Origin: Candidatus Gastranaerophilales bacterium
GTDB taxonomy: Bacteria > Cyanobacteriota > Vampirovibrionia > Gastranaerophilales > Gastranaerophilaceae
Assembly (NCBI GenBank): GCA_944325675.1
Contig: CALVAZ010000112.1
Coordinates: 1-42,781 of the forward strand
DNA length: 42,781 nucleotides
Direction of reading: 5' to 3'
Under the pieces are notes generated by a model, which searched no databases, had not been told where the DNA came from, and was given only the letters and a program-made list of their open reading frames with translations. Position numbers and translations under genes: made by a program. The number at the start of each line of letters is the position of its first letter. Position 1 is the stretch's first letter. Positions 27,256 through 31,191 of the stretch are shown here, piece by piece.

Positions 27256-27864
27256 ATGAAAGTTAGCACAAATTATTCGATTGGTAATAATATTCACTCA
27301 AATTACAATTATCAAAAGTGTAATAAACCTTGCTTTCAGGCAAATTTAATTCCTGCAGTGAAGGAAACTTTGATTATGGAAGCTAAAAGAGCAGGCAAAC
27401 TTGGCAAGTTGAATGAACAGTTGAAGAATATTGCTAGCTGGGGTAGCCCAAAATCTTTTATCAACACAAGTTATGATTTAAATGATGGCAAAACTCTTTT
27501 GTCGCTTGAAAATTATCATTTATCCAACAACTATGGCGGTAATTTAGGTGTTAAAAAGAATGCAGGTTTACTTGAGCAATTTTTATCACTTACTGAAAAG
27601 AAGGTTGTTGATGCCGAAAAAAACATTGCTGATAGTGTTGCTTTAAACAAAAAAGAGGCAACTTTAGCTATATTCAACAACCCTGAATATGTTGAAAAAT
27701 TAACAGGTGAAAAAAATCCTTCAATGGGGAAGTTGAAATCTGCAATTAATCAGCTTTCTGAAGATGAATTGATAGATTATCGTTTCGGATTAAAGGATAA
27801 GAAGTTTGATTTAGATAATGATTTTTTTCTGAACTCATTGACAGGTATTGAAAAAATAAATTAG
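27256..27864 (+). CDS. Unknown protein upstream of the histidine attenuator
   Basis: A 202-residue soluble protein, rich in Lys, Asn and Leu, with no signal peptide and no recognised domain. The N-terminus (MKVSTNYSIGNNIHSNYNYQ) is low-complexity, then CFQANLIPAVKETLIMEAKR begins a predicted helical body (LGKLNEQLKNIAS; VDAEKNIADSVAL). AAAGGAG is well placed before the ATG. The histidine leader ORF starts 33 nt after its stop with no strong promoter between (an exact TTGACA at 27838-27843 lacks a good -10), so leader and gene may share a transcript. Confidence 0.6.
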   Translation: MKVSTNYSIGNNIHSNYNYQKCNKPCFQANLIPAVKETLIMEAKRAGKLGKLNEQLKNIASWGSPKSFINTSYDLNDGKTLLSLENYHLSNNYGGNLGVKKNAGLLEQFLSLTEKKVVDAEKNIADSVALNKKEATLAIFNNPEYVEKLTGEKNPSMGKLKSAINQLSEDELIDYRFGLKDKKFDLDNDFFLNSLTGIEKIN

Positions 27865-27897
27865 TTGTGTTAGCATTTAGCAAAAGGAAAATTTTAA

Positions 27898-27951
27898 ATG
27901 AAAAAAGTATTTGTAAAACTCCATCATCATTCACATAGCACCCTCGGGTAG
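27898..27951 (+). CDS. Histidine leader peptide
   Basis: A 17-residue ORF encoding MKKVFVKLHHHSHSTLG, with AAGGA 9 nt before its ATG. His codons are 9, 10, 11 and 13. The arrangement (short basic start, His run, stop inside a hairpin, then an intrinsic terminator) matches the enterobacterial HisL leader in style. Segment 1 of the attenuator is codons 13-15 and the stop lies in the segment 1-2 loop region, so ribosome position at the His codons would decide the RNA fold. It is too short to be seen in ordinary gene calls. Confidence 0.8.
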   Translation: MKKVFVKLHHHSHSTLG

Positions 27952-28040
27952 GCTATGGAATTGATGTGTCGCTTTTTACAAATGTTTCAATTCTATAAAA
28001 AATAGCTTCCCGGGGATTAAAAGCGAGAAGTTATTTTTTT
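27934..28040 (+). promoter_or_regulatory. Histidine transcription attenuator (1:2, 2:3 and 3:4 hairpins)
   Basis: Hairpin 1:2 pairs CATAGCACC (27934-27942) with GGT-AG-GCTATG (27947-27957). The competing 2:3 pairs GGG-T-AGGCTAT (27946-27956) with ATAGCTTCCC (28002-28011), continued inward by GGAATTGA (27957-27964) with TCAATTCT (27987-27994). The terminator 3:4 pairs AATAGCTTC (28001-28009) with GAAGTTATT (28027-28035), followed by T to 28040. 2:3 excludes both 1:2 and 3:4. A ribosome stalled on the His codons would cover segment 1 and favour the antiterminator; one reaching the stop would cover segment 2 and favour termination. Confidence 0.78.
28001..28040 (+). terminator. Attenuator terminator hairpin
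   Basis: A 9-bp stem, AATAGCTTC with GAAGTTATT, with two further inner pairs across a mismatch, is followed by a 6-7 nt T-run. It ends 27 nt before the next gene, upstream of that gene's GGAGG. Confidence 0.8.
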
Positions 28041-28066
28041 ATCGAATTGGAGGTTTTAAACAAAAT

Positions 28067-29428
28067 ATGTCACTAGTAAATTTAATATCAGCAATAGGAA
28101 ATAATAGCAGTATTTACCCGTTAATAGTTCGTGACTGTGGTATTGAAGTCCCGACCAAAATTGCTATGACTTATAATCAGAATAAAGAAAACAAGAAAAT
28201 AGCATGGCTTGGAGCGAGAGAAAGGTTTATCGATGAATATTCTGTGTCTGCCGTTTGGTTAGGCGGTATTCCGCTGATCGATAAGCTGGGTTCAAAAATT
28301 ATTAAAAAAGTAAGAAATATAGGGTTGAACTCGGATGTGAATTTAAAACTTATAAGTGATGAAGAAAAATACAATAAAAAACTCAAATCCGGTAAAGCTG
28401 TTGAGGATTTATGCCAAGGTTTTGAGTACAATATCAAAAAATTTGCAAATATTCCGGAAGCAAAAGAGGCAGTTGAAGATTTAATTAAAGTTAAAAACAA
28501 CAAAAAACTTTTTGAAGGCTTGATGAACACAAAATTTATTACATCTATTGCCATACCGATTGCATTGATGGGTTTTGTCATCCCTAAATTAATATTTGCA
28601 TCCACTGCTAAGAAAATGGAGAAGTATAAACAGGAAAACCCAAACAAAGATTATTCAAGTCTTACTTTCGGCGGAAAGGATTTTGAGCAGTTTATCCGCG
28701 GAAAATCTAAGATGACGACTTTCCAAGGTGCGTTAACCTCTGTTCTTACAAATTTCACAACTGTTCAAAAGATGGCAGTTACAGACGGCGGTTATGCTGC
28801 CGGTAGAATTATAACTGCCAGAAAGAAAAATGAAGCTATTGATTTGGCTTTTAAAATGTCAGGCATGATGTTTTTAAATTTTGTTGCTCCACACTGGATT
28901 GAAAAAGCATTTAATAAGATTACTGATGTAAATTTAGATCCAAAAATGTTTGTTAATAAGAGATTTCTGGTAAACATAAAGAATAATCGCCTTCAATTAC
29001 CGGCTTCAAATTCTGCAAAGGATATAATTGACTTTATTGACAATAATCCGAAAGCACTATTCACAAAGCTTGCTGGCAAATATGATAAAGTTAAATTGCT
29101 TGAAAATGGTGTAAGAGACCCTCGTGCTTATGTTGATGTGAAAGAATTGGTTAAATTCAAATCCAATATTGAAAAATTTGCACAAAATGCTAAGGCTCAA
29201 GGGGTTATGCCAAGAATGTTTGCAAAAGCCGGACAGAACAAGGATATAATAAAATTTGCAAACAAGTCACTAAGGTTACGCTCTCTGACTATTTTGGCAA
29301 ACATCGGCCTAAGCAGCTTTTTGCTTGCATATTGCCTTCCCAAAGCGCAGTTTATTTTTAGAGAATGGTTTACAGGTTCGAAGCTTGAACCTGGGCTTGT
29401 GGAAAATCCTAAAAATAATGCAAATTAG
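28067..29428 (+). CDS. Unknown membrane protein controlled by the attenuator
   Basis: A 453-residue protein. Predicted TM or strongly hydrophobic segments are at about residues 160-182 (FITSIAIPIALMGFVIPKL), 262-280 (MSGMMFLNFVAPHW) and 412-430 (SLTILANIGLSSFLLAYCLP). Between them are long Lys-rich stretches. I find no catalytic motif and do not recognise a family. GGAGG sits 13 nt before the ATG, just past the attenuator terminator, so expression should depend on readthrough. It is followed 35 nt later by the first phosphatase-like gene, probably in the same unit. Confidence 0.65.
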   Translation: MSLVNLISAIGNNSSIYPLIVRDCGIEVPTKIAMTYNQNKENKKIAWLGARERFIDEYSVSAVWLGGIPLIDKLGSKIIKKVRNIGLNSDVNLKLISDEEKYNKKLKSGKAVEDLCQGFEYNIKKFANIPEAKEAVEDLIKVKNNKKLFEGLMNTKFITSIAIPIALMGFVIPKLIFASTAKKMEKYKQENPNKDYSSLTFGGKDFEQFIRGKSKMTTFQGALTSVLTNFTTVQKMAVTDGGYAAGRIITARKKNEAIDLAFKMSGMMFLNFVAPHWIEKAFNKITDVNLDPKMFVNKRFLVNIKNNRLQLPASNSAKDIIDFIDNNPKALFTKLAGKYDKVKLLENGVRDPRAYVDVKELVKFKSNIEKFAQNAKAQGVMPRMFAKAGQNKDIIKFANKSLRLRSLTILANIGLSSFLLAYCLPKAQFIFREWFTGSKLEPGLVENPKNNAN

Positions 29429-29463: not shown

Positions 29464-30282
29464 ATGCGTATTAATCCTGTAACTTTATATAATTCAAATC
29501 TGATTCTCTTTAAACAGAAAAAATATGATTTAGAAGATGAAGTTGTAGAAAAACCTAATCTCCGAAATAACCTTTTTGAGGTAGATATTATTGGTGCTGC
29601 TTCTAAAAATCAGAAAGGGCATTCTGATAAGAGAGAGTTAAATCTGAGTGATTTTGAGAGAATAAGCTTGTGGGAAACTTATGTAAGAACGCGTTTGCCA
29701 ATGCCGATAACATCTATTGGTGCCGATTGTTATAGAGGTGAAGCACTTTTGTATACTCCCAAAAGAATGAACGAGTTAAAAGCTAGAGGGGTTAAAAGAG
29801 TTATTGATTTGGCAGGATTGGAACACTATGACGAGTTATGCAAGAAAAAAGGCCTTGACTATGTAGCTTTTCCAATTTTTTCTGATTACCAAGAAAATCC
29901 TGTTTTTTTGACAAGAGACCAATATGCTGAAAAAATGCAGGAATATAGTTGGGGTAAGAAAGGTTTTGACGATTCTGATTTTGATGAAAAAGGTTTGAAA
30001 TTTATACGTGACTTTAAAGAATTGGTTAATGTTATAAATGAGGGTAAGTTCTATATATGTTGTAACCATGGTCGTATTAGGACTAACTTGGCACTACTTA
30101 TGAATCAATATTTTAATCCAAAATGGCAGGGTGACAAATCATTAGTTCCTAATGATGAGGAAAAGGTTTTGTTGCAAGAATTCTATTATAAACTTTCCCC
30201 AAAAGATAAAAATGACTTAAATTTTACTCAAGAATTTGATGACTCAATAAGAGAAAAATTGGACATACCCGAAGATTGGTAG
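29464..30282 (+). CDS. Tyrosine/dual-specificity phosphatase-like protein
   Basis: A 272-residue protein. It has the PTP P-loop CX5R as CNHGRIRT (Cys200 to Arg206), with the usual Gly at Cys+3 and Thr after Arg. Upstream, CYRGEALLYTPKRMNELK (residues 89-106) and RVIDLAGLEHYDEL match the N-terminal pattern of bacterial DSP/Y_phosphatase3 enzymes, and Asp141 in FSDYQENP could be the general acid. The protein has no signal peptide. The substrate (phosphotyrosine, phosphoinositide or other) is unknown. It has AGGAGGT before the ATG and lies in line with the attenuated membrane protein gene and a paralogue downstream. Confidence 0.75.
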   Translation: MRINPVTLYNSNLILFKQKKYDLEDEVVEKPNLRNNLFEVDIIGAASKNQKGHSDKRELNLSDFERISLWETYVRTRLPMPITSIGADCYRGEALLYTPKRMNELKARGVKRVIDLAGLEHYDELCKKKGLDYVAFPIFSDYQENPVFLTRDQYAEKMQEYSWGKKGFDDSDFDEKGLKFIRDFKELVNVINEGKFYICCNHGRIRTNLALLMNQYFNPKWQGDKSLVPNDEEKVLLQEFYYKLSPKDKNDLNFTQEFDDSIREKLDIPEDW

Positions 30283-30351: not shown

Positions 30352-31191
30352 ATGAAAGTTGCAATCCTAAATTTAAGAAAAATTAATTTTACATCGCGTG
30401 ATAAGTGTCATAAAGATTTCTCTGAGCAGGAAGATTTGGGTGATTTTGCGGATAATTGGGAAGGTTCAAAAATAAGAGAAGCTATTAGAAATCATATGTA
30501 TCCGCAGTTTATATTAGATGATAATTCTTCTAAAAAATTACCTTCTTATATTACATCTATTGAAGATGTTTTTGTCCCTAATTTGCAATCTTTGGGGCAA
30601 GGTTCCTACAGGGGCGCTTCGATGTCTCGGAATACTCAATATTTGGAGCTTTTGGCAAAAAATGGTGTAAATACTATCATTGATTTAGTAGGGTTTAGGA
30701 AATTGCAAGAGGCATGTGAAGAAAAAAATCTTAAGTATTACAAATATGAAGTGCCATTTGATTATTGGTCAAATCCGATTTTTATAAGTAACACAGAATT
30801 AATTGCCAACAAAAAAATTGAATTAGCAAAATATAATCTTACTAAAACAGAATTTGACGAGCAGCTTGATTACTATAAGAAAAAAGTCAAACGCAAAAGA
30901 GCTGAATTCATGGAAAAATTTGTGGGCTTGACAAATATAATAAATAAAGGACATTTTTATATAGGTTGCGAGCTTGGAGAATACAGAACCCCGAATATAT
31001 TAGCGTTAAATTCGTATTTTAATCCTAATTGGCAAGGCAAAAAAATGCCGCCGACAGATGATTTTATATATATTTTAATGAAAAATATGTATAAAAATAT
31101 GACTGAATTTGATAAGCAAAAATTAGGTTTTACCGAGAAATTTGAGCAAAATTTGCGTAAAAAATTGAATATAAATAATGAGAGGTATTAA
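30352..31191 (+). CDS. Second phosphatase-like protein, paralogue of the 29464 gene
   Basis: A 279-residue protein aligned to its neighbour over its length: SYRGASMSRNTQYLELLAKN against the CYRGEALLYTPKR block, TIIDLVGFRKLQEAC, an Asp-Tyr-x-x-Asn-Pro segment (Asp137) and the P-loop CELGEYRT (Cys206 to Arg212). Both end in S/N-YFNP-N/K-WQG plus a conserved C-terminal helical tail. The P-loop keeps Cys, Gly and Arg but has acidic residues in the loop, which is unusual for a phosphate pocket. No ribosome site precedes the ATG. It ends in the 31177 hairpin. Confidence 0.7.
   Translation: MKVAILNLRKINFTSRDKCHKDFSEQEDLGDFADNWEGSKIREAIRNHMYPQFILDDNSSKKLPSYITSIEDVFVPNLQSLGQGSYRGASMSRNTQYLELLAKNGVNTIIDLVGFRKLQEACEEKNLKYYKYEVPFDYWSNPIFISNTELIANKKIELAKYNLTKTEFDEQLDYYKKKVKRKRAEFMEKFVGLTNIINKGHFYIGCELGEYRTPNILALNSYFNPNWQGKKMPPTDDFIYILMKNMYKNMTEFDKQKLGFTEKFEQNLRKKLNINNERY

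Follow-up and report, generated by a model that had tools for sequence, protein, structure and literature searches.

The gene g1 of a Gastranaerophilales bacterium codes for an orphan predicted membrane protein and is directly preceded by a short leader ORF rich in His codons. We conclude that a ribosome-mediated histidine attenuator very probably controls g1, acting mainly by hiding or exposing its Shine–Dalgarno (SD) sequence and, in this lineage, probably also by transcription termination. The class of mechanism is known; the target, the lineage and the auxotrophic setting appear to be new. The analyzed DNA (the window) is a contig of 42,781 nucleotides from a 1.47-Mb, 86%-complete genome (MAG). 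The terms 'family' and 'genus' refer below to groupings of the genome set used, with 288 genomes in the family. The features of the attenuator region are compiled in Table 1.

Table 1. Features of the predicted histidine attenuator and the genes that follow it (window positions).
Feature	Position	Strand	Basis
Promoter-like TTGAAA (27848-27853), 17-nt spacer, TAGCAT (27871-27876); candidate	27848..27876	+	Sequence; similar motifs upstream of the leader in genus relatives
SD AAGGA of the leader ORF	27884..27888	+	Sequence; AAGG or AGGA at the same place in most relatives
Leader peptide ORF MKKVFVKLHHHSHSTLG, stop TAG	27898..27951	+	His-rich leader in 56/56 loci and 14/14 divergent ones
His codon cluster CAT CAT CAT TCA CAT	27922..27936	+	Ribosome-masked folding; relatives peak alike
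Stem 1, 5' strand, pairs with 27952-27966	27925..27939	+	Fold; duplex -15.8 kcal/mol; cognate over non-cognate z = -4.4 (23 thinned sequences)
Segment A, 5' side of the antiterminator; partner B	27942..27956	+	Double-sided changes in 12/14 pairs; 95.3% of cells paired in an alignment fitted to the structure
Segment D GGAATTGA, similar to the SD region of g1; partner E when ON	27957..27964	+	z = -3.8, p = 0.00015 (thinned); also seen in folding with a stalled ribosome
Segment X TCGCTTTT, may pair with 28019-28026 as a pseudoknot	27969..27976	+	Cognate versus non-cognate permutation p = 0.0007, 65 sequences, uncorrected for their relatedness
Segment E TTTCAATTC, anti-SD; partner F when OFF, D when ON	27985..27993	+	E:F z = -7.8 (23 thinned sequences); half or more of the SD paired in 59/65 OFF folds
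Segment B; partner A when ON, C when OFF	28002..28015	+	Covariation, cognate pairing, folding
Segment X' AAAAGCGA, in hairpin loop	28019..28026	+	Same permutation test as X
Segment C, 3' side of the OFF hairpin; weak terminator with 7-U run (28034-28040)	28027..28042	+	B:C z = -10.1 (thinned); U-run of at least 5 in 36/65 relatives
Segment F GAATTGGAGG, g1 SD region, partly paired in the OFF state	28044..28053	+	OFF folds, cognate pairing, window folding
g1, basic, helical protein of 453 aa without known family or fold	28067..29428	+	Pfam, NCBIfam, PDB and fold searches; AF2; hydropathy
p1, CX5R phosphatase-like gene, after g1 only in its own genus	29464..30282	+	No Pfam match; neighbour comparison
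p2, CX5R phosphatase-like gene, weak Y_phosphatase3 match (E 6e-4, below the curated cut-off)	30352..31191	+	Pfam; neighbour comparison

The leader is real and strongly conserved. The initial annotation of this DNA had described an ORF with a ribosome-binding site and four His codons in five positions, and the description holds: a comparable SD-led ORF never appeared when the window was dinucleotide-shuffled 100 times. The His codons of MKKVFVKLHHHSHSTLG are codons 9, 10, 11 and 13, all of them CAT. Sequences resembling TTGAAA-N17-TAnnAT occur at the same distance upstream of the leader in genus relatives. Scanning with the g1 protein returned 17 loci at 39–93% identity, and the leader was found at all 16 whose upstream region is present. 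A covariance model built from 17 leaders matched 153 of the 288 family genomes, each of them exactly once. At each of the 56 loci read, which include a few genomes reached twice, a g1 ortholog lies directly downstream of the leader; other neighbours vary. Fourteen further g1 orthologs were missed by the model. All 14 have His-rich leaders (e.g. MFTPSVKRHHHNHHHCH and MKTGNQNRLHHHHHLG), and the RNA of these divergent leaders is mostly unalignable.

No relative read has lost the His codons. Each leader at the 56 loci contains 3–7 of them, in registers that differ (HHHSH, HHNHH, HLHHH, HHLHHH), with Tyr (TAT) or Asn codons in some cases taking the place of His codons or interrupting the run. The leader peptide is otherwise little kept, except for its C-terminal part, which overlaps segment A. 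Codon usage is skewed as well: CAT accounts for 94% of the leader His codons (56 loci) versus 57.5% in nearby genes (p = 1e-29), a bias that may come from base pairing or from the choice of a slow codon. A translatable, SD-bearing leader ORF with a conserved codon cluster for a single amino acid, one of the marks of ribosome-mediated amino-acid attenuators, is thus present.

The RNA of positions 27898-28045 folds with -41.3 kcal/mol (z = -5.2), and none of 200 shuffles was as stable. Two pairs of mutually exclusive helices, A:B against B:C and D:E against E:F, each have covariation support, another mark of amino-acid attenuators. The A:B duplex (27942-27956 with 28002-28015) amounts to -20.5 kcal/mol; its covariation is 0.591 versus 0.306 in shuffled data, with 170 double-changed cells versus 50. 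When the partner was slid by 1–3 columns, the paired cells dropped to 31–55% from the cognate 95.3%, a value obtained with an alignment fitted to the structure; in an unfitted MAFFT alignment of 17 sequences, 91.6% of cells are paired and nine pairs are doubly changed. When cognate strands were compared with non-cognate ones for 23 thinned sequences, A:B reached z = -9.7 (see Table 1 for B:C, E:F, stem 1 and D:E). Segments X and X' might add a pairing that would form a pseudoknot with either A:B or B:C.

These results refine the architecture initially proposed. The competing pairing of 27946-27956 with 28002-28011 exists and covaries in relatives, although it is longer than was described. Segment 1 had been placed at codons 13-15; it actually spans codons 10-14. 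What had been read as an intrinsic terminator at 28001-28040 does include a 7-U run, but it is part of a longer hairpin (~27985-28052), the outer helix of which (TTCAATTC:GAATTGGA) takes in the start of the g1 SD. Since the G+C core of this hairpin is short, the terminator is expected to be weak.

We modeled the ribosome by masking 15 nt on either side of the P site, an assumed footprint. In the window, the computed probability of A:B was 0.79–0.89 with the A site at His codon 1, 2 or 3; without a ribosome, or with the ribosome at the fourth His codon or the stop codon, it was 0.00. Likewise, the g1 SD was exposed only with the ribosome at His codons 1-3. Across 63 relatives, mean SD accessibility was 0.43, 0.47 and 0.49 over the first three His codons versus ~0.25 elsewhere (His versus stop, p = 1e-6). 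Individual folds are noisy, and the His-stall effect exceeded the stop state by more than 0.1 in 36 of the 63 relatives taken singly. Mean accessibility in the 14 divergent leaders is likewise highest over the first three His codons (0.39, 0.47), but not significantly so (p = 0.24), the effect being seen in five of them. Thus, in computed folding a stall at His codons turns the switch ON, and completed translation or none turns it OFF, clearly so in about half of the single relatives.

Based on this modeling, the first three His codons of the leader are predicted to be the regulatory stall codons. In the absence of a ribosome, or after translation of the leader up to its stop, B:C and E:F would pair, the latter covering the SD region, and g1 would be OFF. 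If charged tRNA-His ran short, the ribosome would stall at the first three His codons and block stem 1; A:B and D:E would then pair, C and the SD would be left free, and g1 would be ON. The protein would accordingly be made under histidine scarcity. We infer both the response to histidine in cells and the termination efficiency of the switch. The initial proposal of a ribosome-mediated attenuator with His codons in a lineage related to Cyanobacteria is supported by the conservation of these codons and by the covariation of the pairings.

It might be argued that the mechanism is purely transcriptional, as originally suggested, with the terminator near 28040 as the sole output. The 7-U run agrees with this, and so do the strong terminators that overlap segment B in some relatives (L087, L104 and L076). 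However, among 65 relatives, 59 have two or more of the four SD bases paired in the OFF hairpin and only 36 have a U-run of at least five, so that the SD-hiding helix is the more conserved element. Moreover, segment E covaries with the SD region. In other relatives, such as L014 and L015, the terminator is absent and only SD hiding is left. Termination as the sole output is therefore unlikely. The folds instead point to SD hiding as the conserved output, with termination apparently added in many lineages, perhaps including this one. It is also conceivable that base pairing (CATCAT with TGATG) brought about the His codons as a by-product and that the leader senses something other than histidine supply. 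The codons do lie within stem 1, and pairing predicts the observed preference for CAT over CAC. Nevertheless, the His clusters persist despite the register shifts (HHNHH, HLHHH, HHLHHH) and in the 14 orthologs with unrelated hairpins, and SD accessibility peaks with the ribosome on His codons, which makes such a by-product scarcely credible. Finally, the switch could respond to the quality of tRNA-His decoding, such as queuosine modification of the GUG anticodon, and not to histidine itself. The CAT bias would fit, as would the Tyr and Asn codons within the His run; yet the bias is explicable by pairing, and the distribution of the leader tracks the histidine pathway specifically (see below). 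We consider sensing of decoding quality very unlikely.

The link between the histidine attenuator and histidine metabolism is apparent at the genome level. The gene for histidinol dehydrogenase, hisD, was found in 81 of the 288 family genomes; here it serves as a proxy for the whole pathway, and many of the genomes are MAGs. Five genomes have both the leader with g1 and hisD, 162 only the leader, 76 only hisD and 45 neither (Fisher p = 3e-31). The split is the same among genomes lacking trpA (5, 161, 40 and 44, respectively; p = 2e-17), although both p-values overstate independence, the genomes being related. It is also seen within single genera, with 10 leader-only, seven hisD-only and three double carriers in g6, and 8, 10 and 0 in g35. 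The control for general auxotrophy, trpA, shows an overall anti-correlation with the leader, which disappears when hisD is taken into account (p = 0.39). No hisD was detected in the 86%-complete MAG of the window, and only one of the 16 genus genomes searched has it. Most family genomes thus appear, by gene content, unable to make histidine. One of the five double carriers, G012, belongs to a genus otherwise without hisD and has a hisZ-hisG-hisD-hisC-hisB-like cluster (L022, G012:C10:28042-32256). Its hisD scores far above all other family hisD genes, and the cluster may represent foreign or contaminating DNA. No His leaders were found within 1.5-kb flanks of hisD loci; the starts of his operons may lie outside these flanks.

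The near-exclusive distribution of g1 and histidine biosynthesis makes a functional link between them likely, and the initial characterization of the controlled genes as unrelated to histidine needs to be qualified. The initial annotation had also assigned the two phosphatase-like genes to a three-gene unit under common control. This does not hold up, as they follow g1 only in its own genus; being lineage-specific, they leave g1 as the target. The g1 protein itself has no match in Pfam, NCBIfam (at cut-off) or PDB sequence searches, and none of the Foldseek hits is significant (best E 0.25). Consequently, neither sequence nor fold assigns it to a known amino-acid transporter family. Hydropathy reveals only two strong hydrophobic segments (~157-175 and 410-423), unlike in ordinary amino-acid transporters, and the chain has 73 K/R versus 43 D/E residues. 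The AF2 model, computed from the window protein and 16 related-locus sequences, has a pLDDT of 76 and a pTM of 0.71, and at that pLDDT is no basis for function. Some g1 matches (in G257, G269, G273, G024, G092 and others) contain one in-frame stop. Most of these are in long open frames, and the match may overrun the gene's own stop.

Whether g1 helps histidine auxotrophs to obtain histidine is, in our judgment, an evenly balanced question. The attenuator could be real and g1 nonetheless encode a protein of the cell surface or of host interaction that is induced by starvation, with histidine serving just as a cue. The lack of transporter-like features in hydropathy and fold searches is in keeping with such a protein, as are the phosphatase genes downstream in one genus, and auxotrophy may itself mark a host-dependent lifestyle. 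However, a lifestyle marker explains poorly why hisD and the leader with g1 still avoid each other within g6 and g35 and when only genomes lacking trpA are considered; we regard a surface or host-interaction role as possible but somewhat doubtful.

Homologs of g1 in other families and its paralogs within the family have no His leaders (the same holds for the one g1 paralog of the window's own genome that was read closely, at L020) and are preceded instead by other short conserved leader ORFs. These leaders often have an Arg-Arg pair (CGA-CGN) near the start and NLxWGL at the end. Tandem-Arg leaders were seen upstream of g1 homologs or paralogs at L156-L175, L180 and L181, and at L020:1181-1440 (e.g. 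MINTRRITQANRKLVRIANLIWGL). In 17 such leaders, the sequence that follows the Arg codons is complementary to the bases abutting the SD (cognate versus non-cognate z = -4.3, p = 5e-5). A second upstream Arg-Arg leader is present at L164-L167, L171 and L020, and a terminator-like hairpin follows several. A third leader type, MLxIKIY...ANKxxVDLMNMxWGL, lies directly upstream of another group of g1 paralogs (L176-L178 and L182). As a probe for Arg auxotrophy, argG (PF00764) gave full-length matches in ~22 of the 288 genomes, and at least one genome (G095) has both argG and an Arg-type leader. There are also many partial argG matches of 70 residues, which perhaps represent another enzyme such as MnmA. 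Together, these leaders suggest amino-acid-matched control across the g1 family. We tentatively propose that g1 is the His member of a new membrane-protein family for amino-acid acquisition or rescue in Gastranaerophilales-type bacteria. Each paralog would be switched by its own amino-acid-matched leader, Arg for several (with tandem CGA-CGN beside the anti-SD), and gain of the His member would accompany loss of histidine biosynthesis.

Histidine attenuators have been reported in Proteobacteria and some Firmicutes, upstream of his genes (PMC9413887). The g1 leader shares with enterobacterial hisL (RF00514) a short leader peptide with His codons, alternative antiterminator and terminator hairpins, and a decision made by ribosome position. 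It differs in that RF00514 is absent from the 19 models listed at E up to 10, that it belongs to another phylum, that the SD is hidden too, and that its target is an orphan predicted membrane protein in mostly His-auxotrophic genomes. RF00514 stands upstream of his biosynthesis genes, whereas g1 comes next in all loci read here. The Rfam scan of the leader assigned it to no known RNA family. Candidate histidine attenuators of Firmicutes (Bacillus cereus group, Peptostreptococcaceae and Erysipelotrichales) have 3–5 consecutive His codons and precede his biosynthesis or transport operons, and attenuators that hide the ribosome-binding site in place of a terminator have been noted (PMC9413887). 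A His leader peptide before attenuator structures and RBS hiding are common to both, but here the target is one orphan gene that rarely occurs together with his biosynthesis. A His-specific T-box has been reported upstream of a histidine transporter in auxotrophic Holdemania (PMC9413887). Like the histidine T-boxes of Firmicutes and Actinobacteria, the g1 switch is predicted to respond to tRNA-His charging, but a T-box binds tRNA directly and the g1 leader is translated. The leader has no T-box covariance-model match at gathering thresholds or at E up to 10. A 2016 survey noted a lack of reliable data on attenuation in Cyanobacteria (PMC4833913), and we found no report of it for Melainabacteria or Gastranaerophilales in the open-access literature.

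Our results describe a family-wide, covarying predicted attenuator in non-photosynthetic gut relatives of Cyanobacteria. The switch names its own signal and is thereby an unusual and testable lead to the function of an orphan protein encoded by over half of the genomes sampled from these gut bacteria, which are hardly cultured. It is also a clue to how these bacteria may live without making histidine.
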